From the NCBI GenBank assembly GCA_037951105.1, contig JBAMJV010009121.1:1-64000 (forward strand): 64,000 bases of DNA, in the 5' to 3' direction. This DNA comes from Echinarachnius parma. Taxonomy: Eukaryota > Echinodermata > Echinoidea > Clypeasteroida > Echinarachniidae. The number at the start of each line of letters is the position of its first letter. Positions within the stretch are counted from its first letter, which is position 1. The translations under genes and the position numbers were made by a program. The notes under the pieces are model-generated. The model saw only the letters and a list, made by a program, of their open reading frames with translations. It was not told the origin of the DNA and ran no database searches. Shown piece by piece: positions 7,812-59,304 of this stretch.

Positions 7812-10800
7812 AACAATCGTCATCATCATCATCGTCGTCATCATGATCACTATCGTCATTACCTGCTCAAGTCTCGGCTCCTCGAGTAAAAAACTGGTTG
7901 AAGGCGTGGATGCTTTCAGCGTACCCGCCGCGGAAAGACTCGGGAAAGTCCTCCATACATACCTCTCCTCTAGCTAACGTGTTATCGAGCAAGATGGTTC
8001 CCTTGGTGCGAGAATTCTCTGATCAAGTAAAATCTATAAAAAATACAAACAAACGAATAATGATGATATAAAATAAACTTAACGGGGGATTAAGTTTTCT
8101 TGTCCAATAATTATCACCTTTCCTAATTCTTAGTTCTTACATTAGAAACACGAAGAAAAGAGAGCTAGCATGAAACTAAGCAGTTAGTGGGCTTTTATGA
8201 ATATGAGCCCTATAGTGTCTTAATAGCACCCCCTTGCGTTAACGGATGGTATTTAAAAAAATGAAAACAGCGTAGTAAATTAAGATGAATTATTCTATTA
8301 TTGTTAAATCGAGCATGACAGAATGATAACCATCAGTTTTCAATGACAAAACATAAGTTTTAGTCGCTATAACATTTAGTGAAACCAAGACTGTAAATTT
8401 GTTAACGCTTGACCGGTCGAGCATTGAATATGGGAAGGATAATCATTAATAGGGCCTTGTGGCTCAATGGTTTGAGTTTCACAAAGCAATATTTTGTCAT
8501 CATGACAAATTTGTCATAATGACAGATTTTTATGGTGGCATTATATAAGGACATTTTGGCCTAAATTTGACTAAAACTTTGCCAAAGTTTAGCCAAATTC
8601 GCATAATTTGGGCAAAAGGTCACAGTAATGCCACCATAAAAATTTGTCATGATGACAAACCCTCCGGTTTAGCAAAACGGAGGTCTCGGGTTCGATTTCC
8701 GGCGAAGCCCATTTTTCTTTCCTCACTTTTAATTATTATTATATATATATTTATGGCCAGTTTCCTTCTATATACGTCTGAAGGTACTTACTGTTACATA
8801 TTCCTTGTATTCACTCTTTGCGGCGTCGATGAAAACTAAGTCGAACTGTTTTTTGTTTCTCCAAGCACTTTCATCAATTCGATGGCGTCACCTACATAGA
8901 TTAAGCGAAACATTACACAGCAAAGCAGTTATCAACTACTTATGTATCCCCCCAGTTGCGTACCTTGGTCTGACCGATTTGGGGGGGGGGGGGGGGGGAC
9001 ATCTTATATATTTCTTTGTCTTGTCAAAAATGTCCCCTTTTGTTTTCTATTGTTTTTTCTTCAAATTATTGGGGGCACGGGCCCACCCCCCGTGCCCCTC
9101 CTCTGTCGCTACTAATGTCCATTGCGTTTTACATCAAATGAGGCAGTGGCCGTTGCTATATCGGGTGATCGAGAACTGTCGTTCAACGCCCTACACATTG
9201 GGCGATCTCGGTGGTCTTGTGGTAATGACGCATGTCCAGTACACCAGGAGGTCGTGAGTTTTATTATATATTATTTTTTTCACACAGTGGCTCAAACACG
9301 CATTAAGTTTTTTTGTTATAGTCCTTAATCTAGCGTATGTCGCGAGAACAGGACAAAAATACAATAAATTATAATCAGTTGTAATACCAATTTGAACTTC
9401 GATCTTGTCTCCTTTTTTCGTCTTCGAGAGGAAATCAGGCGCGATATCAGCGATGGCGGGAAGCTTTTCCATGGTAACGAGTCGTCCGTCGCTAGGCAAC
9501 CCCTCCGCCATGTTCAGAGCAGCGAATCCCGTGAACGTGCCGATCTCCAGGACTCGTTTCGCTCCCGTCATCCTCACAAGCATCTTGAGGAAAGTTCCTA
9601 AAGAAACAAAATAATTTGAATACGTGAAAGGAATTAGTCAACGATTGACTGGCGGCAAGTCCGTATCAAAGCTAGCAGTAGAGCCACGGTAACGGGAAAT
9701 AAAAAGTTGGAATTGTTTCGTCACATATTTCCTCTTGGGTATCACTAATAATGGAAATAAGCAATGTTCTTGAAACCACTATCAACTGTTTTGACTGACT
9801 ATTGGAGGCTGCCATATTTTCCAGCGGTACCGCATGAAACGTCATCTGAGCGCGCATTAACAAAAACGGGTTAAGTAACCGCTGTTGTTGAATCGGCTGC
9901 TATGTCAGTGGAATTACTTAACCCGCTTTTATTAGTGCAAGGTCAGATGAGTTTCATATGGTACAGTTAAAAACATGGCCGCCTCCAGTGTTCAGTCAAA
10001 ACAGATACAATTGGTTAAAAGACATTGAATATTTCCGTTATTTGTGATAGCCAGGTGGAAAATATATATAATTAAAAGACTTGAAGGGACGGGAAGTTGC
10101 TTATCGTTTGAAAATGCCAGCGGTTGGCTCCCCTTTAAACATACAAACGTGTAAGGTCTTTCAGAAACCCCAGTTTAAACTCTATTACCCATTGCTTACG
10201 GGAACCTATAGACTAAGAATGGTGAAGTGTGACGTCATCAAAAACCTATTTTTAGAATTTCCAAATTTGAACTTCATTTTCCGAAAGAGCATAACAAATA
10301 ATGTCCAAATGTTGAAAATCAATCGGCTGACATTTGCCCATCCGAATGAATTTTATTTCAATAGGCGATCAGTGTTATAGTGCTTTGGTTCATAACGTTA
10401 TGAACCAAAGCAATATAACACTGATTTCTTATTGAAATAATATTCATTTGGATGGGCATGCCTCAGCCAATAACATAATTCGATTGATTTTCAACATTTG
10501 GGCATTATTTGGTATGCTTTTTCGGAAAATAAAGTACAACTTGAGAAATTCTAAAAAAAATTTGTATGATGTCACAGCTTCGGTACTCTATATTTAGCTA
10601 TAATGGTCATGTTTTAACTCTTTGGGGATTGCAAAGTCTAGTTGTGAACAGGTTAACTCGAGTGATTTAATATAATTGTAAACTAGTATACCTTGGAGAG
10701 GGTCTGATGACATTTCTATGTAGAAAATGTCTCTCCCCGTCTTCCCCTCATCGTAGAGCGCTTTATAATCCAACAGGAAGGTCTTTTGATATAAAAGCTG

Positions 10801-26717: not shown

Positions 26718-27575
26718 TTATTCTAATTTTACCGTTTCCCATTTTTGTAAATGTAGTCCTAATTTTCCCATTTTAATTGCTATTCCCTTTTCCTGGGCCT
26801 TATAATCCAATAACAGTTTCTGTATTTTATCAATATTAGGTAGAACACCCTCTTTTCTAAATACAAATAAAATATATTTTACCATAAAAATGATGGTATT
26901 GCAACATTTTATTCTATTTGAATTACCTGACAATCCAACAAATATATCCCGCCAATTTAAGTCCTTTATTTCATCTAACAAAAAACGTTGTATCAAAGCT
27001 TGCCATGTCAATTTTACATTTAAACAAAATAAAAATAAATGCGAATATGTTTCCCTTTCCCGTTTACAGTACGAACACAAGTTGTCTTCAACAAATCCAA
27101 ATCTAAATAAATTATCTTTAGTGTAAATTGCCCCATGGAGTAACTTAAATTGAAACTCTCTCTGTTTCCCAATTATTAATGTTATTCTTGGTCTAAAAAA
27201 ACATCCATACATTTCTTTATCTATAAAATTAAAATAATTTTGTCCATCTCTTATCTGTAAATCATATGTCTTTTGCAATTCTCTAATAAAATAATCATAT
27301 ATTTTTCTTGATGGTACATCCTTAAAACTTAATTTTTTATCCAAAAGATATAAATTAATATTATAATTTATTAAGTCTACCTCACAAAATTGTATCAAAC
27401 CTAAATCAATTTTCCAATCCCTCGGAATCGCATGATATATATCACTTATTGTAAGTAAGTTGTCACCTCTCATACCAAGGTTCAAAAAGTATGCAACGGG
27501 TTTAACATGTCCATTATCCATAACATGGTTCAACATAACAATCCCTCGTTCAAATAATTCTTTATCAAATACCAT
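26718..27575 (-). CDS. L1 ORF2 C-terminal region with zinc-knuckle-like motif
   Basis: 285 codons. FQFKLLHGAIYTKDNLFRFG is followed by CSYCKRERETYSHLFLFC, a CxxC-H-C pattern found at the C-terminus of L1/Tx1 ORF2. Separated from the thumb by a break at about 27600-27670. Confidence 0.8.
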   Translation of the reverse strand: MVFDKELFERGIVMLNHVMDNGHVKPVAYFLNLGMRGDNLLTISDIYHAIPRDWKIDLGLIQFCEVDLINYNINLYLLDKKLSFKDVPSRKIYDYFIRELQKTYDLQIRDGQNYFNFIDKEMYGCFFRPRITLIIGKQREFQFKLLHGAIYTKDNLFRFGFVEDNLCSYCKRERETYSHLFLFCLNVKLTWQALIQRFLLDEIKDLNWRDIFVGLSGNSNRIKCCNTIIFMVKYILFVFRKEGVLPNIDKIQKLLLDYKAQEKGIAIKMGKLGLHLQKWETVKLE

Positions 27576-27670
27576 CTTATTTTTTTAAATACATATATTC
27601 CTATTATTAAAAATAATTGGATTCATACAACCATTAAAATGCCTTAAATTATCAATCTCTTTCCAAGCTT

Positions 27671-28462
27671 TCAACATTTCCAAGGTGGAATCTTGAACCT
27701 AAACTTCATCTTTTGCATTTCATAATCACATAAGAAAATTAGCCTTCCTCCTACTGAACTTAAGCAATAATCAAAAAATAACTTCCATCCCAAATTTCTT
27801 TCTCCATATAATAATCGTTTAACACACATTATCCGCTGCGTTCTAACAAATATTTCAAAATTAATCATTTTTACTCCACCATAATTATAATTTTGATACA
27901 TAATTTTTCTTTTTATACGATCCTTCCCTCCCCATATAAAATCAAACGATATTTTCTCCACTTCTATATAAACCCATAGGGGAACAACAAGGAGAGATGA
28001 AACATAATTCAACTTTGTTAATGCATACGTTTTCAATAAATGTATTTTACCCATAATAGTCAAATCCCGTTGTTTCCACCAACCTAGAAGCTTTTTAATT
28101 TTACTTAATATTTCTTTGTAATTTAAATCATCTTTTAATCTAAAATCGACCGAGAAATTAACACCTAACATTTTTACTTCCTTAACAAATTGTCCAAATA
28201 AAGGCCCATCTGGTTTCCCATTTTCCTCACCCATATACATAAAATGTGTCTTTTCCTTATTAACTTTCAAACCACTTACTTTTTCAAATTCTTCAAATAT
28301 ATATTGCAACCTTCTTATGGAGTCTAAATCTTTCAAAAAAATCGTCATATCATCTGCATACAATACTTGTCTTATTTCATGCTCCCCAAAATGTATCCCT
28401 TTAATTATTTTGTTCCTCCTTACTTCATTTGCCAATAATTCTAAAAACAAATAGGGCGACAA
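27671..28462 (-). CDS. L1 ORF2 RT palm and thumb
   Basis: 263 codons starting SPYLFLELLANEV, catalytic QVLYADDMTIFL, GLKVNKEKTHFMYMG and VKMLGVNFSVDF, then LTIMGKIHLLKTYALTKL. Typical L1-group order. Confidence 0.82.
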   Translation of the reverse strand: MSPYLFLELLANEVRRNKIIKGIHFGEHEIRQVLYADDMTIFLKDLDSIRRLQYIFEEFEKVSGLKVNKEKTHFMYMGEENGKPDGPLFGQFVKEVKMLGVNFSVDFRLKDDLNYKEILSKIKKLLGWWKQRDLTIMGKIHLLKTYALTKLNYVSSLLVVPLWVYIEVEKISFDFIWGGKDRIKRKIMYQNYNYGGVKMINFEIFVRTQRIMCVKRLLYGERNLGWKLFFDYCLSSVGGRLIFLCDYEMQKMKFRFKIPPWKC

Positions 28463-28761
28463 TGGATCACCTTGTCTGACCCCCTTTCTATATCAAAATA
28501 ACCAGTGGAATAACCCCCATTCATAATACAACTACTTATATCATTATATAATATCTTCACCCAAGAACAAAACGAATCACCAAAACCAAACAATTTTAGC
28601 ACTTTCAATAAATATTGATGGGATACAGAATCAAAAGCTTTTTCGAAATCTACCGCAATCAGAAACCCCTGTCCTTGCTCTAATGAATGTATAGAATAAA
28701 ATAATATATCCTCTATTAATCGAACTGCTTCCCCAATATTTCTGTCTTTTATATATCCCAC
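28441..28761 (-). CDS. L1 ORF2 RT palm, first part
   Basis: 106 codons with FLIAVDFEKAFDSVSHQYL (first catalytic Asp region) and CIMNGGYSTGYFDIERG. The following RQGDPLSPYLF motif is reached only after a one-base shift near 28490. Confidence 0.8.
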   Translation of the reverse strand: MGYIKDRNIGEAVRLIEDILFYSIHSLEQGQGFLIAVDFEKAFDSVSHQYLLKVLKLFGFGDSFCSWVKILYNDISSCIMNGGYSTGYFDIERGSDKVIHCRPICF

Positions 28762-28780
28762 CTGATCATAATGAATTATT

Positions 28781-29800
28781 TCATTTAAAACCTTTTTTTA
28801 TCCTAGTTGCTAAAACCTTCGATAATATTTTGTAGTCTACATTTAACAGTGTAATGGGTCTATAATTTTGAATATGCTTCGCATCTTTTCCCTCTTTTTC
28901 TATCAATGTTATAGTCCCTTGTTTTTGAGATACCGTCAATTCCCCCCTTACAAATGTTTCATTCAATACTTCTACCAACAAATCCCCTAATAAGGGCCAA
29001 AATGTATCATAAAATTCCACCGTGAACCCATCATTTCCAGGGGATTTATTCCATTTCATTTCTTTCAAAACCTTAAAACACTCATCTTTCGTCATTTTAC
29101 CTTCACATAATTCTTTATTCTGTTCACTTAACTTTAAAATATCATCAAAAAATAAACCATTATTTTGACCACTATCATTCCTCAAAGAATATAATTTTTC
29201 ATAAAATGTCTTTATCTCTTTTAAAATGTCATTTTTATCCCTAGTAATTTCTCCATTTTCCTTATACATTTCTCTAATGACACTTTTCCTCTTATTTACT
29301 TTCAACAATTGTTCAAAATACTGAGTATTATTCTCCCCTTCTTCAAACCAAGCTGCTCTAGAACGAACTTTAATGCCCTGTCGAGAAAAATCATACAATT
29401 TATTCAACTTATCTTTTTTCAATTTAATACTATCAATAACATACCTAGATGCCCCGTTGACTAACTGATTTTCTAAATCCTTAATTTCAGTCTCCAACGT
29501 CTCTATTTCAAGTTTCCTTAATTTCGCCTTTTCACGTGAATATTTCATGGCGTATTCCCTCATTTTCATTTTCAAAAAATCCCAAAATACTAATTTATTC
29601 AAAATCCTAGGTCCCCATTCATTTTTCAATTCAAATATTATATCATGCATCCCCTCAACAAAATTTTTATCCATACATAAACTATTATTAAATTTCCAAT
29701 ACGATTTTCCAAAAACAAACTTATCCACTAAATGCTGAAATTGTAATTTAATGCCCGAATGATCCGGTGTTATCGATACCAAAATTTCACACTTATTCAC
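28781..29800 (-). CDS. L1 ORF2 middle region and RT start
   Basis: 339 codons: end of the endonuclease, a Lys/Glu-rich coiled-coil-like linker, then GNDGFTVEFYDTFWPLL and NYRPITLLNVDYKILSKVLA, the fingers of an L1 reverse transcriptase. Stops at a short homopolymer frame break near 28785. Confidence 0.8.
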   Translation of the reverse strand: MNKCEILVSITPDHSGIKLQFQHLVDKFVFGKSYWKFNNSLCMDKNFVEGMHDIIFELKNEWGPRILNKLVFWDFLKMKMREYAMKYSREKAKLRKLEIETLETEIKDLENQLVNGASRYVIDSIKLKKDKLNKLYDFSRQGIKVRSRAAWFEEGENNTQYFEQLLKVNKRKSVIREMYKENGEITRDKNDILKEIKTFYEKLYSLRNDSGQNNGLFFDDILKLSEQNKELCEGKMTKDECFKVLKEMKWNKSPGNDGFTVEFYDTFWPLLGDLLVEVLNETFVRGELTVSQKQGTITLIEKEGKDAKHIQNYRPITLLNVDYKILSKVLATRIKKGFK

Positions 29801-29888
29801 TAATTTTTCTAAACTACATGATATAAACCAATAATCTAAACGACTTTGGACTAAGGGCGACCTTTGTCTAAAAGTAAACTGTCTAACA

Positions 29889-30461
29889 TTAGGATTCCTT
29901 TTCTCTATTATCTTCTAAATCATATTTATTCAAAAAACTTTTTAATACCTCAATAAACCTAGATTTTAATACAATATTTGGCCCTTGATAATCCATGCCC
30001 CCTTCCATTATAGTGTTAAAATCTCCCCCTAATATTACCGAATAATCCTTATCAAAAACTTCAGATATACTTTTATCTAGCTTATTCAAAAAATCAACCT
30101 GTAATTGTACTTTATCTCTTGTAGGGAAATACACATTTCCCAACAAAAATGTAACCCCTTGTATTTCCCCTTTAAATATAATGTACCTCCCTTCTTCATC
30201 TATTACAACTGCATCCCGTTTAAAATCTAAAAGGGGCGAAAATAAAATAAGAACACCTCTACTGTGGTTTGACCCATGGCTAAAGAACATTGGCCCGCCC
30301 CATTCCTTCTTCCACTGTTCTTCTACTTCTATAGTACTATATGTTTCCTGTAAAAAAGAAATATCAGATCCTTTACATTTACACCATTCAAAAATGCGTG
30401 TTCTTTTATCCTGATTCCGTAACCCTCTTACATTTAAAGTAATCCAAGAAAAATTCACCAT
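29889..30461 (-). CDS. L1 apurinic-type endonuclease domain (ORF2 start)
   Basis: 190 codons. Asn in LNVRGLR, Glu in LQET and the Asp/Asn pair in GGDFNT match the metal-binding and catalytic residues of exonuclease-endonuclease-phosphatase enzymes. The last SDH-type motif lies past a frame break near 29890, in the next frame (ITPDHSG). The product would nick target DNA to prime reverse transcription. Confidence 0.85.
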   Translation of the reverse strand: MVNFSWITLNVRGLRNQDKRTRIFEWCKCKGSDISFLQETYSTIEVEEQWKKEWGGPMFFSHGSNHSRGVLILFSPLLDFKRDAVVIDEEGRYIIFKGEIQGVTFLLGNVYFPTRDKVQLQVDFLNKLDKSISEVFDKDYSVILGGDFNTIMEGGMDYQGPNIVLKSRFIEVLKSFLNKYDLEDNREKES

Positions 30462-30903
30462 TTTATTTTACAGGTATATAAAATCTTTATAATTACCGCG
30501 TGATCTGTATCCCCCGTGAGCATGTTTATACAAAAAAAATAACTACAACGAAACCTACATGACGTATCAAAAAACATATTGACTGTGAGCAGACCCCAAC
30601 CCGTACACGACACACACGCACCCTTCCCCACCCAACCCTGTCCACCATCGAGAACTAACATAAAAAACAAACAAAAATTAAAAATCCGGAAGTAGGCCTA
30701 CTCCGTCAAGCTCCCCCCTCACACTTCCTCATATCAAGACAATGTTCCCTCAATATTATCCTAGTATGACTCTACCTTTAAAAAAAAATAATAATTTACT
30801 CTTTGACTAATCTTTGCCTTTTTCTTTCAAATCAAGAGCTGCCTTTTAAGCCCATTACATTTCCAAAGAAAGACAAAAAAAAAAAAAACCTTACCGATGA
30901 TGT

Positions 30904-37560: not shown

Positions 37561-38058
37561 GAGTAGTATATCATCACAATTTGAACTTTTTATCATCATC
37601 TGAACAATTCCCGCCAACTGTTTGACGTATTGATAAGGTGTCTATCCATCCAAAACATTATGGGGGTATTACTGGTGTTGACTTTCTATACACAAATGAA
37701 GCGATTGTCAAAAGAGCATTATACGATAGGCGCCAGTATGGCGAATGAAGCCGTACTATAAGTGTGCGCACCTAAGCAGGTTGCCCCTCGCCAGCTCTCT
37801 GTAGTTATTTTGTTATTTTGTCAGTTTCATTTGATCTTTTGCTATCAAATGTGTAGTATCATTTCTGTTAGCAATTCAGGATACTACTGGACAAGTTTGA
37901 TCATATTTTGTGTTGAATATTATGAGAACTGTTGCATGTAACTTTCTGATTTTTTGAATCTGCATGCTATATATTATACAGCCATATTACAACCATTTTC
38001 TCACTGTACCAAGTGACTGCATGAGGATTAAGTATGTGAATAGAACTTCTCCATTCAT

Positions 38059-39666
38059 TTGCTGTTCACGGTGACCGGGTCACTGTACTACACAATGGAC
38101 AGTAAGCAGAGAACATGTTTTGTGCTACTAATCCTCCTTTTATATACACTGGGCTGTGAATGGAACCAGATCACTTGCACTGAGCCTGTATGCACTTGCA
38201 CTGATCTTGTGTGCAAAGTCATTATCAAATGGCCAAAACAAACAAGCAAGTTTTCAGGGACTCGAATATCCTACTATGGCAACACAACTGCTACTTTTCA
38301 GCCATCTCTTGTCGCTTGTGGAGACATCAGTCCGAATCCAGGACCATATCTTCCTACAGATGAAAATTATGACCATCCACATATCTGTCGATATGATGGA
38401 GTCTCGACGCAAGCAGATGCTCGTGGGAGGATATCCGGCATCAGCAGAACACATGAATGGGGACTGCATCGCACCATCTGGCAAATAATTCATGACCTGG
38501 GCATCGCACGAAAGAGAAAAACTCATCGTGGGACCAAGGGACATGGAAGACGTTTACCTATGCCCGTACTTCAAACTCCTACATCTTCGCATTGCATTGA
38601 AGTGAGAACTTCATGTCGCCTGCCACCAAGACACACGTATAAGCCTTTACCACAACACCATGTTCAGCCTATCTCGAGAGCTCCATCCAGTCCCCGGGAT
38701 CAGACAGTGAAGTCCCGATCTCTGGAAAGACATAACCTAATCTGCATCCCTACGGTCAAAACCAGTAACTCCGGTGGAAACCGTACATTGTTTGCATTGT
38801 GGAACGCACGCTCGTTAAAAGCTCGTGGCAAATCCACTGCACTATGTGACTTCGTTGTTTCTGAAAAGGTAGATCTATTGGCAGTAACCGAGACGTGGCT
38901 TACAAATTCAGATAAAGATGATCATACCATTGCAACCATCCGTACTACTTTACCACACTTTGACTTCTATCATGTCCCACGGTTATCAACAACTGGAGGA
39001 GGCGTTGGCATCCTGTTCCACAAGGGATTTCGAGTTACTCAGAATGACACTTGCAAGTACGATTCGTTCGAGCATATTGATGTGACACTTGTATCTCCGC
39101 ATGGATGCAGTGTTAGACTCGTCGTTGTCTATAGACCTCCACCAAGTAGGAAGCGGAAGCAACCTCTCACTGCCTTCCTATCCGACCTGTCTTCCCTACT
39201 TGAACAATTGCTATCTTCCAGTCAACGACTGCTCATCACAGGGGATTTTAACCTTCATGTCGATGACAAAGACAATACCTCTGCATCAGCGTTTCTTGAA
39301 GCGATAGATGCCCTTACTCTGACAAATCATGTATGGGTACCAACTCATAGAAACAAGCACACATTGGACCTGCTGATTGGAAGGTCTGATGATGGATTCC
39401 TGTCGGAGGTATCAACGATCGACTCTCTCCCATCCGACCATTCTGCGGTGACCTGTTTCCTGAAGCTTGATCGCCCACAGACGGTCAGGAAGTCAGTTAA
39501 GTCTCGAAATATTCGAGCGGTATCTATTCCAGACTTACACCAAGATATTTCGACATCAAATGTAGTGACCGATCCCCTGACGATGTTGAAAGGTTGTTTT
39601 TGCTCCTCCAAGATGAACTTAAAACTGTCCTGGACAAGCATGCACCAGAAAAGGAAAAGGAAATAA
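38059..39666 (+). CDS. LINE ORF: signal-like N-terminus, 2A-like motif and endonuclease
   Basis: 535 codons. A second Met at residue 13 (38095) may be the real start; it is followed by a hydrophobic stretch FVLLILLLYTLGC (20-33). Residues 88-96 read GDISPNPGP, a variant of the 2A ribosome-skipping motif D(V/I)ExNPGP with Ser-Pro for Glu-x; skipping would separate G95 from P96. Residues about 235-475 are an apurinic-type endonuclease: LWNARSLKARGK, AVTETWLT, VGILFHKGF, VVYRPPP, ITGDFNLH, SDHSAV, with the expected catalytic residues. A 2A-like motif ahead of the endonuclease is known from several animal LINEs, including sea urchin ones. The frame leaves the RT frame near 39580. Confidence 0.88.
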   Translation: MLFTVTGSLYYTMDSKQRTCFVLLILLLYTLGCEWNQITCTEPVCTCTDLVCKVIIKWPKQTSKFSGTRISYYGNTTATFQPSLVACGDISPNPGPYLPTDENYDHPHICRYDGVSTQADARGRISGISRTHEWGLHRTIWQIIHDLGIARKRKTHRGTKGHGRRLPMPVLQTPTSSHCIEVRTSCRLPPRHTYKPLPQHHVQPISRAPSSPRDQTVKSRSLERHNLICIPTVKTSNSGGNRTLFALWNARSLKARGKSTALCDFVVSEKVDLLAVTETWLTNSDKDDHTIATIRTTLPHFDFYHVPRLSTTGGGVGILFHKGFRVTQNDTCKYDSFEHIDVTLVSPHGCSVRLVVVYRPPPSRKRKQPLTAFLSDLSSLLEQLLSSSQRLLITGDFNLHVDDKDNTSASAFLEAIDALTLTNHVWVPTHRNKHTLDLLIGRSDDGFLSEVSTIDSLPSDHSAVTCFLKLDRPQTVRKSVKSRNIRAVSIPDLHQDISTSNVVTDPLTMLKGCFCSSKMNLKLSWTSMHQKRKRK

Positions 39667-41645
39667 TACTGAGACCACATGCCCCGTGGTATTCTCAGGC
39701 TTTACGTCGCTCAAAACAAGAACGTCGTCGATGTGAAAGACGCAAGATAAAGTCAGGTCTCCATGTTGATGAAGACTTATATCAAAGACAATGTGAGAGA
39801 TATTACGACGAGGTAAACGCGGCAAAAGCATCTTACTACAAAGACAAGATCGCAGACGCCGACGTAAGGAATCTGTATCAAACAGTTAAACAACTGACAT
39901 GCCCTGCAAGAAAAACCACTCTACCGGACTACTCATGTCCAACGGACTTAGCGAACAGGTTCAGCAAGTTCTTTGATGACAAAATCAAGGCTCTAAAAGA
40001 ACGCTTGAAACGGATGCCGTACGAAGACCTATCTCTTCCAATCAAGGAATCCGGTCACTCGTCTTCTTTCTGCAGGTTTGATGATGTTCCTGAGGAAGAC
40101 ATTACAAAAATCATCAGATCTTTATCCGGTGCAACATGCTCGTTGGACCCGCTTCCGACGACACTTCTCAAGAAATGTGAAACGGTGTTGCTCCCAGTCA
40201 TCACCAAACTAGTGAACCAGAGTCTGCAGACTGGTGTCTTCCCGTCTGCATGCAAACATTCATTAATGACGCCAAAACTGAAAAATGGTAATCTTTCAAA
40301 GCAAGAGCTGTCAAGTTACCGTCCTGTGTCAAACCTAAATTACCTGAGTAAGATAATCGAGAAGGCAGCAGTAAGGCAAATTCAGGACTATGTCAGTGCT
40401 CACGATTTGCAACCCCGAACACAGTCTGCATACAGGCGTTTTCATAGCGTGGAGACGGCGCTAATTCGAGTCGAAAATGATATCCTGTCAGCCCTAGACA
40501 AGCACAAAGACGCTATTCTTGTATTATTAGATTTCTCAGCTGCCTTCGACACGATATGCCATACGATCCTCCTTCAACGACTGCAAACGAGATTCGGCAT
40601 AACCGGCACTGTGCTCGAATGGTTCAGGTCGTATTTCAACCAACGTACTCACACTGTTCAGATCGAAGGCTGCGTTTCGGACTCGGTGACAGATACATGT
40701 GGTGTGCCACAGGGCTCGGTCCTAGGCCCTGTTGCTTTTACTCTCTACACTGCGCCAGTTCAGGACATCATTGATTCTCACCAGATGAACGGCATGTTGT
40801 ATGCGGATGACACGCAGCTGTACGCCGTTTTCGACAGAAATGAACGATCGAGCCAAACTAATGCAGTAGAAAAGCTCAACAACTGCATTAAAGACATCAG
40901 AATTTGGGCCAACAAAAATCATCTGATTTTGAATGAAAATAAGACTGAAATCATTCACTTCTCTTCGAAATTTGTGCCGAAACCTACATTCAACCTTGAC
41001 GTGAGAGTTGGTAATGCCATCATTGAACCAGCTGACGAGGCAAGGAACTTGGGAGTTATCATGGATAAACACCTAACATTGAAATCCCATGTCAAAAAAG
41101 TTTGTTCGTCTGCTATGGCAGCTGTCCGCCAAATTGGGAAGATTCGCAATTATTTAGATAAACACACAACCCAAACTCTTGTACATTCCCTTGTAACATC
41201 TCGCCTGGACTCGTGTAACTCCCTTCTTAAAGAACTACCTGCATCTGAAATACAGAAAGTCCAAAGAGTTCAAAATACTGCGGCAAGGATGGTGGAAGGA
41301 TCTTCATACAAATTACACATTACTCCCATTTTGCAAACTCTACACTGGTTACCGATCGAAAAACGTATTTTATATAAGATTTTGATTCTCACCTTTAAGA
41401 TTATAATTGGACAGTCCCCTTCCTATTTAAATGAACTTATACAACGCTACACTCCATCTCGCACTTTGCGCTCTCAAGACCAACTGCTCCTTAAAATCCC
41501 ACGATACAAAACAAATTACTATGGGAAAAGATCCTTCTCCGTCCTTGCCCCAACTCTTTGGAATAACCTTCCTTTTGAACTTCGCTCTCTAACCTCTGTA
41601 ACTTTGTTCGCTTCTAGACTAAAAACACACCTCTTCACTCATTAA
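39594..41645 (+). CDS. LINE reverse transcriptase ORF
   Basis: 683 codons from the first Met. Order: linker with KEKEIILRPHAPWYS, RT motifs YRPVSNLNYLSKIIEKAA, TQSAYRRFHSVETAL, LVLLDFSAAFDTICH (first Asp), TCGVPQGSVLGPVAFTLY, MLYADDTQLYAVF (catalytic YADD), NLGVIMDKHL, then a C-terminus with LVTSRLDSCNSLL, ITPILQTLHWLPIEKRILYK and APTLWNNLPFELR. It makes cDNA from nicked target DNA. The real start probably lies upstream, joined to the endonuclease frame; the overlap of 73 nt is in a different frame. No internal stops. Confidence 0.9.
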   Translation: MFLLLQDELKTVLDKHAPEKEKEIILRPHAPWYSQALRRSKQERRRCERRKIKSGLHVDEDLYQRQCERYYDEVNAAKASYYKDKIADADVRNLYQTVKQLTCPARKTTLPDYSCPTDLANRFSKFFDDKIKALKERLKRMPYEDLSLPIKESGHSSSFCRFDDVPEEDITKIIRSLSGATCSLDPLPTTLLKKCETVLLPVITKLVNQSLQTGVFPSACKHSLMTPKLKNGNLSKQELSSYRPVSNLNYLSKIIEKAAVRQIQDYVSAHDLQPRTQSAYRRFHSVETALIRVENDILSALDKHKDAILVLLDFSAAFDTICHTILLQRLQTRFGITGTVLEWFRSYFNQRTHTVQIEGCVSDSVTDTCGVPQGSVLGPVAFTLYTAPVQDIIDSHQMNGMLYADDTQLYAVFDRNERSSQTNAVEKLNNCIKDIRIWANKNHLILNENKTEIIHFSSKFVPKPTFNLDVRVGNAIIEPADEARNLGVIMDKHLTLKSHVKKVCSSAMAAVRQIGKIRNYLDKHTTQTLVHSLVTSRLDSCNSLLKELPASEIQKVQRVQNTAARMVEGSSYKLHITPILQTLHWLPIEKRILYKILILTFKIIIGQSPSYLNELIQRYTPSRTLRSQDQLLLKIPRYKTNYYGKRSFSVLAPTLWNNLPFELRSLTSVTLFASRLKTHLFTH

Positions 41646-43868: not shown

Positions 43869-44427
43869 TGAGTTTTAAAAAAGAAGCTAGACATCCAGCC
43901 ACCTATATTCAAACTTATATGGCTAATTGAAAAAAACAATTCAGAATCCCTTTACATGTACTAAGAACTTATAAGCAAAACTTAGATCGCATCAATAGTT
44001 AGAATTTCCAGTTTGTATTAAGATCTTGTATGCTGTCATTTCAGGTGACTCTCTGCTAATAATAAGATACAGTATGAGATGTCACAAAAGAACTATTATA
44101 TCTAGCTCTAAACATCAATATATTTCCACAAAAAGATATTTAAATTCTTAATCTACTCAGACTAGATCTTATTATGGCATTAATTGTCTTTCCTGTATAA
44201 GGCAATGATCTCGCAACTTTTGAATATTGGCCTGCATAAGTTGCAAAAGGGAGAATCCACCATTTATAAATCATCTGAACATTCTCAAGTAGCGGAAAAA
44301 TATAACACGGACAATTTCTTTTTAAATCAATTAACGCTGTAAATTGGTTTCTACAATCCCATTTTCCTTGCTCTTTTTCATTTATAATACAACAAAAGAC
44401 ATTTGAACAAATGGAATAAATCATCTC
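43869..44427. other. AT-rich spacer, nothing recognised
   Basis: A minus-strand 94-codon ORF at 44424-44140 shows no family pattern and no splice context. Left unassigned. Confidence 0.4.
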
Positions 44428-44823
44428 TTAAAGGGATCTAGTAACTTTGTTGAGATGTGCAAAAACTGATGAATGGTTGATGCAATGTATACTGTTGTTA
44501 TCTCATATGTCCTCAGGGTATTGTGTGAAAATTTCAGGTCAAATGGACAATGTATGGCCAAGTAATGAGCGAAAATGCAAAGTGATATTGGGTGATATTC
44601 ACCAACTCACTGCATTCACTTTGTACAGGGATGAAAATCTCGCCCGGAGATTTTCTTATCTAAATACTTCAATCATACATATCTTTGTAATGAAAGGGAA
44701 ATTTGAAAAACCGAAAGCTGTCCCATGATTTTATTGTTAATACGAATACAACAAGGTATAAAGGAACCGCTAGAATTACAATTTTATTTTGAGGATTTGG
44801 ACAATGTTACTAAGTCCCTTTAA
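44428..44823. mobile_element. TTAA element, family T1, well-preserved inverted copy
   Basis: Begins TTAAAGGGATCTAGTAAC and ends GTTACTAAGTCCCTTTAA. Close to 103-485 inverted and to 47687-48073. Confidence 0.85.
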
Positions 44824-44982
44824 GCGATTTACATTTCGCTTTCACAATGATTAAACCGCAACTTGCTGCACCGCGCTGATAGCTAACATGAGCGAAACCT
44901 TACATGAGCGAAGACTCGTTAACCAAAATAAAAGGACGGTCCAACCATCTATTATTTTGACGTCTTACAATCAATACAACCG

Positions 44983-45260
44983 AACATGGTGGCTTTGCGG
45001 TTAGAGTGTCCGCCTCATGCACGGGAGGTCCTGGGTTCGAACCCGGACCGGGTCATACCAAGGACTTTAAAAATGATACCTTCTGCCTTCTAGCCAGGAG
45101 CTCGGAATGTACAGAATGGATAAGGGGAAACTAATTACACGAGTTACCAGAGGACTGGCCCCCTTCTGTAGCTTTTGAAACATTTAGTAGACGTGTCGTC
45201 TAGGGCTAATGAATTGGAGATATGCGCCAGAATTGGCACGGGAAGGACTTTAACTAACTG
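44983..45260 (+). mobile_element. tRNA-derived SINE
   Basis: A box TGGCTTTGCGGTTAGAGTG and B box GGTTCGAACCC about 30 bp apart, then body CATACCAAGGACTTTAAAAA and a diverged tail. Lies just downstream of the DD-TM-DD gene's poly(A) signal. Confidence 0.75.
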
Positions 45261-45334
45261 ACATAACATCAATAGAACTTCGCGAAAAGGAGGTTAAAAG
45301 CCATAATTGTTGTAACCAATCTCTTAAATTATAT

Positions 45335-45340
45335 TTTATT
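45335..45340 (-). terminator. poly(A) signal AATAAA of the DD-TM-DD gene
   Basis: AATAAA on the minus strand about 68 nt after the stop codon, a normal position for a short 3'UTR. Confidence 0.55.
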
Positions 45341-45407
45341 TCATATATGAGACAACAATCTCGCAACTCTTTAAAATTCGGATTGCTAATATATTGGACA
45401 ATAATCT

Positions 45408-45876
45408 TTAAGCAGGAAAGTACTTGTCAGAAAGTGCCGCAAGTTCCGCTTTTACAAGAGCATCGCGCAACATGGCGCTTCTTGGGACCTTCCCCTGGTC
45501 GTGTTTTTTCATCCACCAATCGCTCAGCATGTCGAATGTTCCCTGAGATGTTGTTCTTGTTCCCTGTACGTTTGTTTCTTGGTAACGAGTGATTTGCGCA
45601 GGGGCAAATTCAAGGCTCAGGCCTAGTTTGTAAACGTGAGAATTCGGGATCTCTTCAGCGAGTAGCCATAATTGTGTCTCTCCTGTCGGGTTTGGTGTCA
45701 TTACCCGACTTGAATTTTCAGAGGGCGGTTTTGCATACATTACCGCTAATCCTATAATACAAATTGCGACGCTCACGAATACAACTACACGTGTATTGAG
45801 TAAATGTTTCCCTTGACCAAGTCCGTTAGGCACCATTTTCTCTGTCTTGTAGTTTGTGCCATCGTGTACGTCAGAC
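45408..45876 (-). CDS. DD-TM-DD gene exon 4 (helix and second death domain)
   Basis: Acceptor AATTTCCAAACAG precedes 45876. The exon opens SDVHDGTNYKTEK, then the membrane helix, a short polar linker and the second death-like domain, ending DKYFPA and a stop at 45410-45408. Confidence 0.88.
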
Positions 45877-48800
45877 CTGTTTGGAAATTAAAAGGAAACC
45901 CACATTACATTTTACGTTCTGGATACAGAATCGTTCAAAATCGTTGGATCGACCGCATAAATTATTGAATTGATTAACCAAAATGATCCTGGTATCTCGT
46001 CACAGGTGCAAGGTCCCCCCACTTTATATTGGCCGTGTGTACGTTGCTTGATCGTTCACAATGTTTAAGCCTAATTGAGGCAAAAACATTAAGGGATTTT
46101 TCTTCATAACAGTTAATCTAAAGTGAAAATAACAAGTTTACCCAGATTTGAATGCCGCTCGAATCATATTTAGCATAATCATGATACAGTATATTTTCCT
46201 CAAACTCACAAATTCCACAAATTAAGAAAAGTTCGGAGGGTGTAGATAGGAAAAATGGGGAGGAAGGAAAATGTGATGATTATGTCAAAGGAAGAATATA
46301 ACATGGAAATACGAGTAGGGAAGAAAGAGATAAAGACAATAATGAATGGGAGAAATAAATCATAACGGCTCATGTAGAGCGCTGTTTTCATTTGAATAGC
46401 ACCCGTTTAAACAAGAGGGCGCTATTAACAAATACCTGGAAGAGTACAATTTATTCATCAAAATTGTAAAATGGTTTATTGATTCATTGGTTTATTTGAT
46501 TTTCATTTGAACGATTTAATTTGTTGGAAAAGGGGGGTTTGTTTGAAGAAAAAAAAAAATATTATTTGTATCATGAATTCTTTTATGAAGTAATATGAAC
46601 CGTTGATGATTTAAGATTTGGTGGTATAATACAGAGACAACTTTTAAGTAATAATACACAGTACTTTGCTTATAATGACATCAAGGAAAATACATTTTCA
46701 CTGTGGAGTTAATTTTTAGATTGTACTGCACGGACTGATTGTAATTTATGTTTTGTAGATCACAGACCAAAGTCACCGAATCTGAGAATGCGACCATAAC
46801 TATGATTGTTCTTGTTCTCTTTTCGATCGACACACAGTGACTATTTTGGCTGGTAAATATATAATTATGAAATCTTAAACTAATTTGGTATTAGCCTACC
46901 TGTTTGCTTGATACTGGTGAGTTGAATCTGAAAAAAATATCGATGATAATATTATGTTATACGTTGAATAATTACCGTGCCATAGGAACATAGATAATAC
47001 ACACTAAGAAATATATCACCCTATAGCTGCTACAATAGCAGTACCATACCGTAGAACACCATCGTCAAGCACCCCCAAGCACCAATATGCATCTTGCTTT
47101 TAAAGAGCGCCCGCTCCAAACGGGAAACTTTAATCAAGAATGCAAATAATGGTGAGGAATATTCATGAGGATAATTATGGAGGTGAATCTCATGGAAACG
47201 TCTTTAAAAGCAAGATGCGTATAGGTGCTTGGTGGGTGCTTGACGATGGTGTTCTACGGTATGTGGTGTAGACTGGCACATTAAGGGTGCATCTGCAAAC
47301 CCAATAAGGTGCAAACCCTATTTTTGGGTGCAGAATTGCACCATTAATGGTGTACATTTGAACCTTTATTTTCTAGTTTGTACAATTAATATAATTGTTA
47401 ATAATAGTCACTATAATACAAAGAAATAAGCAAGTTAACAACAATTGTTATTTCCAGTAATTGTTTGCTTCCGGCCCCTTAATAAAGTGAGTTATACAAA
47501 CTATGCACGAATGTGACCAGTGAGATCACCAGATGGTTAGAGCTTTGACATGAGGTTCATTAGTAATATCCACATTCTCTGCTTTATGATTATATATACT
47601 AGTAACTGTGCATTCTAGATGTAAGATTTTATAAATATGTTCCAAAGCTATAAGGTCGATGTAATAACGTTACAATGTTTGCATGATTAAAGGGATCTGG
47701 TAACTTTTTTGACATGTGCAAAAAGTGATGAATGGTTGATGCAATGTATATTGTTGCTATCTCATATGTCCACAGGGTATTGTGTGAACATTTCAAGTCA
47801 AATGGACATTGCATGGCCAAGTAATGAGCGGAAATGCAAAGTGATAGTCACTAACTCACTGCACTCACTTTGTACACGGTAAGAAAAACTCCACCAGAGT
47901 TTTTCTTATCTGAATACTTCAATCGTACATATCTTTGTAACGAAAGGGAAATTTGAAAAACCGTAACCTGTCCCATGATTTTATTGGTAATACGAATACA
48001 ATAAGGTATGAGGGAACCGCTAGAATAAAAATGTTATTTTGAGGATTTGGACAATGTTACTAAGTCCCTTTAACGTCTTCGATCGCCGCCAATGGAAAAT
48101 GAATGATTGAAATAGAGATATGAATTCTCACGATAAACTCTTCTCTCCCTATACAGTATATCTTTGTCTGCTATTGCTGTGAATCACTTATTACACATTT
48201 TCGTAATATAATTAACACTGGTTATGAAGGAACAGTTCTTATAAATGGTTCGCTAGCTATACAATACATCGTCGAACCAACATGGATACAATTTTAAACT
48301 TACCTTCGAATTCTATTATCCCCCCCTTTTGTCCAAGTACAGTAGTAAGTGATGTCAGCCCACATGACTCGAAACTCTCCCGAAGCATTTCTTTATGCGA
48401 GGGTCCACATCCGTTCGCAGTCTTCCACGCCATGAGAACTTCCGTCGCCGCCTTAGTGTTGTCATAAGAACACCTTTGCCGAATATTATCAATCTCGTTC
48501 CATGAATACCCGAGTTTGTTGCCAAGTTCGTCTAGCTTACCATGTGGGACTTGTTTCGCTAATTTAAGGATGATGTCATCGGTCAGATTTCTTGGCGTCC
48601 TAAAAAGAATATACAACGCACTTAAGTGTCGCCAGCTGTTTAACCGATACTACACCTACGATATAATATGAATGATGAATGATGCGCTACCAATGATAGA
48701 GAAACAAAATGGTGATCTCGATATTGTACAATATATAATTATTTCTAACGCGTCGGATATAATATTTCGGTCCAATGTTTTGTAAAGCTTAATTTCGAGT

Positions 48801-49166
48801 GTTTCTTTGGCAGACATGTATTCTTAAATTGTGTAACAAAAAAGACAGTTTGGAAAAGTGTGATATTGAATGTTAATTATACAACTGGGAAATATCTAAC
48901 AAACATGTAATCTTCTCAACTACATTCTGCCTAAACATTAATTATACCTATGTAAACCTTTTCAATTATTTAACATTAGGAGTGACAGCAGTTTGAAAAC
49001 CTAGTATTTATCTTTACGAAATACGTTAACTTCATGAACACCTTGTTAATTAATACAATATATCACAATAAACCCAATGAATCTTACCTAGCAGAAGTTG
49101 ATGTTGCCATGCTGTAGTTAATCTCACGTTTCTTACTCCTGTTATTCCCTTAGTCAATTTTACTTT
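45408..49166 (-). CDS. Death-domain / transmembrane / death-domain protein, complete four-exon gene
   Basis: Exons 49088-49166 (ATG at 49110), 48304-48599, 46900-46927 and 45408-45876 join with GT-AG introns to 816 nt, exactly 271 codons plus stop, with no frameshift. Residues about 14-97 form a death domain (LAKQVPHGKLDELGNKLGY, WNEI, AATEVLMAWK). Residues 146-164 are one strongly hydrophobic helix (VVVFVSVAICIIGLAVMYA) bounded by R145 and K165. Residues about 185-269 are a second death-like domain (LWLLAEEIPNSHVYKLGLSL, FDMLSDWW, MLRDALVKAELAAL). There is no N-terminal signal peptide. Death domains normally make cytosolic contacts in apoptosis and innate immune signalling, so two of them either side of a single helix is odd. 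Death-domain genes are known to be numerous in sea urchins. Two TTAA/MITE insertions sit in intron 2. The gene model is strong; the role is inferred only from the domains. Confidence 0.85.
45877..46899. other. Intron 3 of the DD-TM-DD gene
   Basis: AT-rich sequence with no recognised element; flanked by a GTAGGC donor and AAACAG acceptor on the minus strand. Confidence 0.5.
46900..46927 (-). CDS. DD-TM-DD gene exon 3 (28-nt microexon)
   Basis: A 28-nt exon between TTTTTTTCAG and GTAGGC. Joined to exons 2 and 4 it keeps the frame and encodes the polar linker DSTHQYQANR. Skipping it would shift the frame before the membrane helix, so it could act as a switch for loss of the helix and second domain. 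Confidence 0.75.
47046..47262. mobile_element. MITE in intron 2 of the DD-TM-DD gene
   Basis: Inverted ends of about 60 bp: ATACCGTAGAACACCATCG and CGATGGTGTTCTACGGTAT. Inner ATGCATCTTGCTTTTAAAG and its inverse. Arms nearly identical, so recent. Confidence 0.88.
47687..48073. mobile_element. TTAA element, family T1, in intron 2 of the DD-TM-DD gene
   Basis: Begins TTAAAGGGATCTGGTAAC and ends GTTACTAAGTCCCTTTAA; very close to the copy at 44428-44823. Confidence 0.85.
48304..48599 (-). CDS. DD-TM-DD gene exon 2 (first death domain)
   Basis: Acceptor ATTCTTTTTAG precedes 48599 and the consensus donor GTAAGT follows 48304. 296 nt encode the whole first death domain, then GGIIEFE. The split Arg codon with exon 1 and split Asp codon with exon 3 both resolve. 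Confidence 0.88.
49088..49166 (-). CDS. DD-TM-DD gene exon 1 (5'UTR and start)
   Basis: ATG at 49110-49108 gives MATSTSA plus two bases of an Arg codon, then donor GTAAGA after 49088. The exon is preceded at 49167 by TTTTCACAG, a good acceptor, so an upstream non-coding exon is likely; its location was not found. Confidence 0.75.
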
Positions 49167-49217
49167 CTGTGAAAAGATTGATATAAATGTTTGTTAATAA
49201 GCTATATGCCCTGCTAA

Positions 49218-49500
49218 ATGACACATAATCCCCCGAATAAACAAAACATTCAGGATATCCGTCCTAAAGACTCATTCACATCGCCAAACAAACCGAAACC
49301 ATACAGACACCAGACCGACACTAAACCGAACAGATACCGACGTCAAACTGTGCTCAGGCCGACCCGAAAACGAACCCACACCGACGCCAAACAAAACCCA
49401 GACCAATGCCGAACAGAACCCAGACCAACTGTTACACCAAACCTATAATCGCCCGACAACACCCAGACGAAATACCGACTGAATTCGACAGCAAATTGAA
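49218..49500. repeat. Degenerate CCGAC/CAAAC short tandem repeat
   Basis: Repeated CCGACGCCAAAC and AACCCAGACCAA units; a weaker stretch resumes at 49690-49800. The Pro/Thr/Arg-rich ORF across it is an artefact. Confidence 0.6.
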
Positions 49501-50297
49501 ACTATTTCGATCTGGCCCCATTTTACACAATGTATTACATTTGTGTTAATGTAAACTAGAATGTCAACAGCCATCATCATGGAGCATTGCAGCTGTTGCC
49601 ATAATAGTAAAAATAATTGGACACCTACAATACTCATAACAATTGCTAAATGTATCTGCTGTGGGGCCAAGGTTTCGGTTTTGACTCAGTATGATTGCGT
49701 GTGCCGAACGTACGCTGAAATCGGGTGCGGAATGCAAGACTCAAGACCGAACATAAATTCCGACACCAAATTGACATCACCCCAAAACAACCCTGAATAC
49801 GTTGGTCTGTGTCAGTCTTGCCAGTGTGACCAGGGTATTATAGAACTGAGCCCATACAACAGGGCCCATATAAATTCATCAAACCCCGATAGCTTAGTTT
49901 CATACTAAATCTATTTCAGATCATGCAGTTTAGCCACACACGATTCTTAGCTTCCAATTATGATTAGCTGGGTTTTATAGCCCTAGGTACCAACTAAGTT
50001 AACCCTAGTTAGTAACTACAGAATCATGTGTTAAATACTTAGCCACGTCATCCTATACAGGATGGCCCACACAAAACGGAACGAGGCACTTCCCAAAATA
50101 AAGTAACACAATTAACATGTCCATCGGATAGGGAGTTACGATGCCAAAAATATTCATGTTGGTCGTGTAGTTTTTGTTTTAGGGCGCTCTGAGTGACACG
50201 ATGTCAGGTTCCCATTTTTGTCAATTTTTACCAAGTCATTGCCCGATAATTCGCACTTACTGCCCGTTATAGCATCGGACAACTGCCCATTCTTTCG

Positions 50298-54139: not shown

Positions 54140-56165
54140 CTGACGTCTTTATGACGTCTTAATTTGGTCGTAAACTGGTAAACACGTCAGAATACGATCA
54201 GAATACGACGTCATTATGACGTATTTTAAAGACCATTTTTGACATGATGACTTGTGTCGTATAAAAGACGTAATAATGACGTCATTATAACATCTTTAAA
54301 TGACCATTTTTCCACTATTTATTTTTGTCGTATGAAAGACGTAAAAACGATGTCAGTATAACGTCGTTCAAAGACCATTTTTTAGAATGTATTCTTGTCG
54401 TATAGAAGACATGATAACGACGTCTTTATGATGTCGTTTAAAGACCATTGTTGCCATTAAGGTTTGTGTCGTACGGACAACGTTTTTAATACGTCATGTT
54501 TACGTCTTATTAATACTATTTTTTGCCATCATTTTTTGTCGTATGGACGCCCTTTTTACGACGTTATTGTGACGTCTTTCAAAAAAACATTTTCCAACTG
54601 TTTTTTGTCCGATGGAAGGACGTAAAAATCACGTGAATATTACGTCATTAAAGATCATTTTTTCAGTATTTATTTTTGTCGTATAGAAGACGTAATAACG
54701 ACGTCTTTCGGATGTCTTTGAAAGACCATTGGTTTTTTGCCATCATTTTTTGTCGTATGGAGGACCTTTTTACTACGTCATTTTGACGTCTTTCAAAGAC
54801 CAGTTTTCCAATTATTTTGTATCGTATGAAAGACGTTATAACGACGTCTTTATTACGTCTTTCAAAGACCATTTTTGCAACTATTTATTTTGTCATAAAA
54901 GCGTTTTAAAATTGACGTTTTTATGATGTCTTTTAAAGGCTATTTTTGCCATTAAGGTTTATGTCGTACGAACGACAGTATTAAGACGTCATTATGACGT
55001 CTTTACAAGACTAGTTTTTGCCATCATTTTTTATCGTTTGATCGACCTAATTACGAAGTCATTGTGACGTCTTTTAAAAAACATTGTTTCCAATTATTTT
55101 TTTTGGCGTATAGACGACGTTATTACAACGTGATTATGACGTCTTTCAAAGACATTAACAAAAATGTATTTGGCGTATGGACGACCTTTTTACGGCGTCA
55201 TTATGACGTCTTTCAAAGACAAGTTTTCACATGCTTTGTTTGTTGCATAGGTGCATGATTACGACGTTATTATTACGTCTTTCAAATATCATTTTCACAA
55301 TTTATTTTTGTCATAAGGACGTCATTATGACGTCTTTACAAGACTAGTTTTGCCATCATTTTTATGTCGTATGAACGACATCATTACGACATCATTTTTA
55401 CGTCCTTTAAAGACCAGTTATTTGCAATTATTTTTGTCGTATGGGTAACATGATTACGACGTTATTATTACGTATTTCAAAGACCATTTTTGTCACGACT
55501 CATTTTTGTCATAATGACGTCGTTATTGTGGACGACGTTATTACGTGATTATGACGACATTCAAAGACTAGCTTTCACTTGCTCTGTTTGTCGTATGGGT
55601 AATATGATTACGACGTCATTATTACGTCTTTCAAAGACCTTTTTTTTCACTACTCAATTTTGTCATAAGGACGTCGTAAAAATTACGTCTTTTAAAGACC
55701 AATTTTGCCATTAAAGTTTATGTCGTAAGGACGACGTTATTACGGAACTATGACGTCTTTCAAAGACTATTTTTTGTAATTATTGTTGGCGTATAGACGA
55801 CCTTTTTACGATGTCATTATGACATCTTTCAAAGACTAGTTTTTACTAGCTTTGTTTGTCGTACGGAAAACAATATTATGACGTCATTAAGACATTTTCA
55901 AAAGACTTACTTTTTGGTGCTTCGCTTTTCATTTGTGTCATATGGACGACCTTATTACGACGTCATCATGACGTCATCCAAAGACTAGTTTGTCCAATTA
56001 GTTTTTGTCCTATGGATGACGTTATTACAACATCACTATGATGTCTTTCAAATACTTATTTTCACCATCTTTTTTGTCGTATGGATGACATGATTACGAC
56101 GTCTTTATGACATCTGAAAAAGACCATTTTTGGACGACAATATTATGACGTCATTGAGAATTCCA
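54140..56165. repeat. Tandem array 1 of GACGTC-palindrome units
   Basis: About 2 kb of diverged units, spacing about 70-110 bp. Each has TTACGACGTCATTATGACGTC, then CTTTCAAAGACCATTTTT, then TTGTCGTATG. Units vary in length and sequence, so the array is old. ORFs across it are artefacts of the repeat. Confidence 0.9.
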
Positions 56166-58559: not shown

Positions 58560-59304
58560 CAAAATATGACGTCAATATGACGTCAATACGACGTCTTAAA
58601 GACGTCTTTTTATGACGAAAATACGTCGTTATCACGTCAAAATATGACGTCTATAATGTCGTGAAACGCGGGTACAAAATCTTCACTTTTTGACGTGAAT
58701 TTACGACGTCTTTTAGACGACGTACACGACGTGAAAATCACGTCAAATCCAGACGTAAAAATCACGTCTTATATTGACCAATAAGACGTCTTTATGACGT
58801 CTAAATTACGTAATTTATCGTACATATAAACGTCTTAAAGACGTCTTAAAGACGCCTTTTCGGAAAAAAGACGTCATTATCACGTCAAAATATGACGTTT
58901 TATATTGACCAAAAAGACGTCTTTATGACGTCTAAATAACGTAATTTATAGTACAAATTGACGAAAGACGTCTTAAAGATGTCTTTTCATGACGAAAAGA
59001 CGTCGTTATCACGTCAAAATATAACGTCTATATGTCGTGAAACGCGGATGCAAAATCTTCACTTTTTGACGTGAATTTACGACGTCTTTAAGACAATGTA
59101 CACGACGTGAAATTCATGTCAAATCGAGACGTAAAAATCACGTCTTATATTGACCAATAAGACGTCTTTATGACGTCTAAATTACGTAATTTATGGTACA
59201 TATAAACGTCTTAAAGACGTCTTAAAGACGCCTTTTCGGAAAAAAGACGTCATTATCACGTCAAAATATGACGTCTATATGTCGTGAAACGCGGGTGCAA
59301 AATA
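58560..59304. repeat. Tandem array 2 of GACGTC-palindrome units
   Basis: Higher-order units marked by GTCGTGAAACGCGG at about 58658, 59032 and 59281. They contain TCTTTATGACGTCTAAATTA, CTTAAAGACGTCTTAAAGAC and ATTATCACGTCAAAATATG. Copies here are more alike than in array 1. Confidence 0.9.

Follow-up and report, generated by a model that had tools for sequence, protein, structure and literature searches.

Background

Death domains are best known as adaptors for signalling in the cytosol, and death-receptor signalling starts with bringing these domains together. NRADD is a short relative of the TNFR superfamily death receptors. FADD, ankyrin, RIPK1 and the PIDD/RAIDD proteins are, to our knowledge, cytosolic and lack any arrangement in which a death domain (DD), a transmembrane helix (TM) and another death domain follow one another (DD-TM-DD). 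Here we describe a putative DD-TM-DD gene on the minus strand of a 64,000-nucleotide stretch of the sand dollar Echinarachnius parma (assembly GCA_037951105.1, contig JBAMJV010009121.1, positions 1 to 64,000; hereafter the window), whose product carries a N-terminal death domain (DD1), one hydrophobic helix and a predicted C-terminal death domain (DD2). Like the death receptors Fas, TNFR1 and p75NTR, and like NRADD, the protein ends in a death domain that comes after a single helix, and the death domains of Fas and TNFR1 occur among its sequence and fold matches. However, the death receptors bear a N-terminal cysteine-rich ectodomain and are oriented with the N-terminus outside, whereas the sand-dollar protein has its other death domain in that place and charges that favour a N-terminus inside.

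A second likeness concerns osteoprotegerin (TNFRSF11B), a secreted protein with two death domain homologous regions acting outside the cytosol (PMC9076607), which shows that the death-fold family can exist outside the cell. Osteoprotegerin differs in lacking a transmembrane region and in carrying four cysteine-rich domains together with a signal peptide (PMC9076607), whereas the sand-dollar protein has a helix between its two domains and shows no TNFR repeat, the Pfam search of the full protein returning PF00531 only. Splicing is known to decide on the membrane helix of a death-domain protein, since soluble Fas arises by skipping of exon 6 (PMC4924680). Fas skips the exon encoding the helix, while in the sand-dollar gene the predicted devices are a frame-shifting microexon before the helix or an internal acceptor.

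Literature searches returned, among the matches listed, no protein described with the DD-TM-DD layout, which is weak evidence that the layout is novel. Protein searches at E values up to 10 in a collection of uncertain animal content gave no match for the full protein (521 candidates), the exon carrying TM and DD2 (26 candidates) or residues 8-106 (2 candidates).

Structure of the Gene

The original prediction of four exons joining to exactly 271 codons and a stop was confirmed: the four coding pieces give 816 nt, that is 271 codons plus TAA, all in phase, with GT...AG borders at the three introns. Splice sites were scored with generic animal matrices, which may not be those of the host, and ranked on the minus strand between 45.0 and 49.6 kb. 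The first coding piece (49088..49110, minus strand, 23 nt) runs from the ATG to the donor, covers codons 1-7 plus two bases and ends at a donor ranking 4 of 286. Exon 2 (48304..48599, minus strand, 296 nt) encodes DD1, its donor being the first of the 286 and its acceptor the fourth of 220. It is followed by the microexon (46900..46927, minus strand, 28 nt), encoding linker residues 107-115 and parts of two codons, and by exon 4 (45408..45876, minus strand, 469 nt), whose reading frame is open, continues that of the microexon in phase and holds the rest of the linker, the helix, DD2 and the stop, behind an acceptor ranking 2 of 220. A motif scan located an AATAAA polyadenylation-type signal at 45335..45340 on the same strand, beginning at 45340, 68 nt beyond the stop codon.

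Taken together, the donors of the three introns ranked 1, 2 and 4 of 286, and four acceptors, including one at 49166 upstream of the coding region, ranked 2, 4, 7 and 13 of 220. When the interval was widened to 44-52 kb the same donors ranked 1, 2 and 4 of 488 and the coding acceptors 5, 7 and 13 of 382, with acceptor 49166 falling outside the top 20 listed. The ATG at 49110 is likely to be the start, because an in-frame TAA lies 14 codons 5' of it in the same stretch. Position 49166 had been given as the boundary of the feature; an acceptor is indeed found there (score 6.4), but it lies upstream of the coding start, and a second upstream acceptor at 49210 is stronger (score 8.2). The 5' edge of the first coding exon is thus uncertain, the coding part being unchanged in either case.

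Exon 2 and exon 4, using their best sites, are out of phase with each other and therefore need between them a piece whose length is 1 modulo 3. The microexon was the best of the 69 in-phase open cassettes (itself counted), with a score of 17.6 against 9.0 for the runner-up. In a control in which the interval was resampled from a first-order Markov chain and one cassette exon was allowed, a score of 17.6 was reached in 5 of 300 resamplings. Skipping of the microexon alone would yield a 136-residue protein consisting of DD1 and a 30-residue tail, with its stop codon 89 nt beyond the 5' edge of the last exon; as this stop sits in the last exon, the shorter form is not an obvious target of decay.

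The second intron also contains nested inverted repeats at 47045-47263 (30 nt at 100% and 35 nt at 91% complementarity), which resemble a small palindromic transposable element; inverted repeats of at least 40 nt were not found in 44300-49600. A dispersed direct repeat, made of blocks of 160 and 196 nt with 93% and 90% identity, has one copy in the second intron (47687-48073) and the other downstream of the gene (44428-44823).

The Death Domain DD1 and the Predicted Death Domain DD2

DD1, modelled as residues 9-98 and encoded by exon 2 on the minus strand, is a death domain by sequence family, matching Pfam Death PF00531 with 31.6 bits in the full protein against a cutoff of 22.6. A search of PDB sequences with the DD1 half of the protein returned no death domain, its one match being a lactate dehydrogenase at E 0.85. 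For DD2 (residues 176-271; 45411..45698, minus strand) Pfam gave no match at E values up to 10 in any of the five forms submitted, namely the full protein, the TM and DD2 exon and three trimmed versions. The proposed Pfam check thus bore out the first of the two domains and not the second.

The assignment of DD2 comes from its alignment to DD1, from a predicted structure and from the matches of that structure. DD2 aligns to DD1 along its length with 19 of 91 positions identical, and 10 of 5000 shuffles reached the score of the alignment. When the protein and its parts were compared with the window by tblastn, they found their own exons and a weak cross-match between DD1 and DD2; the other matches in the window, at E 0.19 and higher, were put down to chance. 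An AlphaFold2 (AF2) model of DD2, for which DD1 was the sole sequence aligned with it, showed six helices with a predicted local distance difference test score (pLDDT) of 84.5 and a predicted template modelling score (pTM) of 0.78. When this model was submitted to Foldseek, death domains occupied the first 26 of the 50 matches listed (best E 0.079), and with VIA they occupied the first 21 of 50 rows listed. The death domains of FADD, ankyrin, RIPK1 and the PIDD/RAIDD complex were among the closest folds in the matches listed (VIA Z 11.0-11.8), at 13-17% identity over the aligned part. An alignment-free AF2 model of the TM and DD2 part was set aside (pLDDT 40.4).

Searched by itself against PDB sequences, the TM and DD2 part found no death domain, its 8 matches being unrelated sequences (E 0.13 and higher). 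With a profile built from DD1 and DD2, the death domains of Fas and TNFR1 made up six of nine matches (E 0.17-0.49), the top two of the nine not being death domains. Judged from its alignment to DD1 and from its modelled structure, DD2 is predicted to be a diverged six-helix death fold.

The Hydrophobic Helix and Its Orientation

The helix comprises residues 146-164 (45732..45788, minus strand), with a mean Kyte-Doolittle hydropathy of 2.77. It was compared on two scales, one of them an insertion-energy scale, with a set of 744 open stretches, each of 42 codons, from the rest of the window; minus-strand stretches overlapping 45400-45890 were excluded from this set. Fourteen of the 744 matched it on both scales, and 17 and 19 equalled it when each scale was taken by itself. 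Hydropathy scans of the full protein identified residues 146-164 as the sole strongly hydrophobic stretch, preceded by 145 residues without a hydrophobic start, and gave no indication of a cleavable signal peptide. The proposed order of death domain, microexon linker, hydrophobic helix and death domain is supported, respectively by PF00531, the best cassette, the hydropathy value and the DD2 fold as predicted.

The net charge on the N-terminal and C-terminal sides of the helix is +2 and +1 within 15 residues, +3 and 0 within 20, and +2 and -2 within 30. For comparison, in the human census of Wu and Hegde (PMC13220792) the mean charge of single-pass proteins within 15 residues of the helix is +2.21 on the side facing the cytosol and -0.26 on the opposite side. 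The census also assigns flanks shorter than about 50 residues to Oxa1-type insertases and counts 477 type II and 304 type III single-pass signal anchors. The absence of a signal peptide, the 145 residues before the helix and the more positive N side favour a type II topology, which is the likely arrangement as judged from the sequence, with DD1 cytosolic and DD2 luminal or extracellular. The sequence contains no cysteine C-terminal to the helix and one sequon, N170, placed 6 residues past it; at this distance a sequon is too close to the helix for the glycosylation enzyme, and N170 is of no help on orientation.

We infer from these features both that the helix spans the membrane and which way it is oriented. 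The earlier argument that a single-pass topology would put one death domain on the wrong side of the membrane holds if the helix does span, but the secreted osteoprotegerin is a precedent for such domains outside the cytosol (PMC9076607).

Alternative Explanations

A non-spanning helix, a luminal role for one domain and functional divergence of the second had been listed as ways out of this topology puzzle, a list that overlooked possible removal of the helix by an in-frame splice from 48304 to 45751. This join, from the exon 2 donor to an acceptor within the helix codons (45751..45752, minus strand; first exon base 45751), would produce a soluble 220-residue cytosolic tandem DD-DD adaptor. 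Its combined site score of 17.8 is the best of 18 in-frame direct joins, it cuts most of the helix, so that nothing hydrophobic is left (the best mean over 19 residues being 0.84), and it would keep both death domains in the cytosol. Acceptor 45751 is, however, weaker than that of exon 4 at 45876 (5.7 against 8.1). Chance alone would supply 0.15 equally good in-frame acceptors in the stretch concerned, and a protein without the helix leaves unexplained both the strong microexon (score reached in 5 of 300 resamplings) and the rare helix (14 of 744). We consider it unlikely that this is the main protein, although as a prediction the join is the most serious rival to the membrane form, or else a real second isoform. 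That the model wrongly joins two neighbouring genes seems decidedly unlikely. Reading on from exon 2 into intron 2 would give a DD1 protein of 121 codons unspliced, with a stop at 48259 and an AATAAA further along at 47985, and a separate TM-DD2 protein could begin at an in-frame Met at residue 130, shortly N-terminal to the helix; yet this would abandon an exon 2 donor that outranks all others among the 286 and with which both the microexon and exon 4 are in phase.

The reverse topology, with the N-terminus and DD1 outside and DD2 signalling in the cytosol in the manner of a death receptor whose ectodomain is tiny, would agree with the general order in such receptors, where the helix precedes the C-terminal death domain, and with the Fas and TNFR1 matches of the DD1 and DD2 profile. 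We regard it as very unlikely, as the protein lacks a signal peptide, begins with a long folded part and is more positive on the N side; moreover, it is DD1 and not DD2 that passes Pfam, and the two best profile matches are not death domains. A re-entrant helix with both domains cytosolic, mitochondrial insertion and a decayed gene copy were considered without being ranked; against decay, no stop or frame break was seen.

Other Features of the Window

An open frame on the minus strand at 9191-9637 contains an O-methyltransferase domain, which scores 75.8 bits against a cutoff of 22 (PF01596), and probably belongs to a host gene as one of its exons. On the plus strand, 38044-41645 carries a non-LTR (long terminal repeat) retroelement with two long frames that overlap, the first holding an endonuclease domain (PF03372, 63.9 bits) and the second reading, by eye only, like a reverse transcriptase. 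A run of long frames on the minus strand at 26718-30467 has, again by eye, the look of the endonuclease and reverse transcriptase of a long interspersed nuclear element (LINE). ACGTC-rich tandem arrays with periods from 11 to 212 nt occupy 54205-55907 and 58563-59234.

Proposed Mechanism and Significance

The explanation we propose, which has in our judgement about an even chance of being correct, is a 271-residue single-pass type II membrane protein that clusters its cytosolic DD1 through an exoplasmic DD2. DD1 would bind ordinary death-domain partner proteins in the cytosol, while helix 146-164 would work as a signal anchor and DD2 would be carried to the lumen of the endoplasmic reticulum or to the cell surface. 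If outside, DD2 would reach exoplasmic molecules only, and clustering of DD1 through DD2 is therefore the simplest mechanism, self-assembly or partner binding of DD2 bringing the cytosolic DD1s together. The protein is presumed to be expressed and would cluster and signal downstream, and DD2 may have drifted because it left its cytosolic partners. A broader proposal, that one gene gives three splice products (the membrane DD-TM-DD of 271 residues, a soluble DD-DD of 220 and a soluble DD1-only form of 136) with assembly of the DD2 ectodomain clustering the inner DD1, is improbable.

If a death domain does stand on each face of the membrane, the protein would offer a direct test of the death fold as an ectodomain, beyond the secreted osteoprotegerin, and a new route coupling assembly outside the cell to signalling inside it. 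Were the microexon regulated, the gene would also provide a compact means of switching death-domain proteins between membrane-bound and soluble forms.
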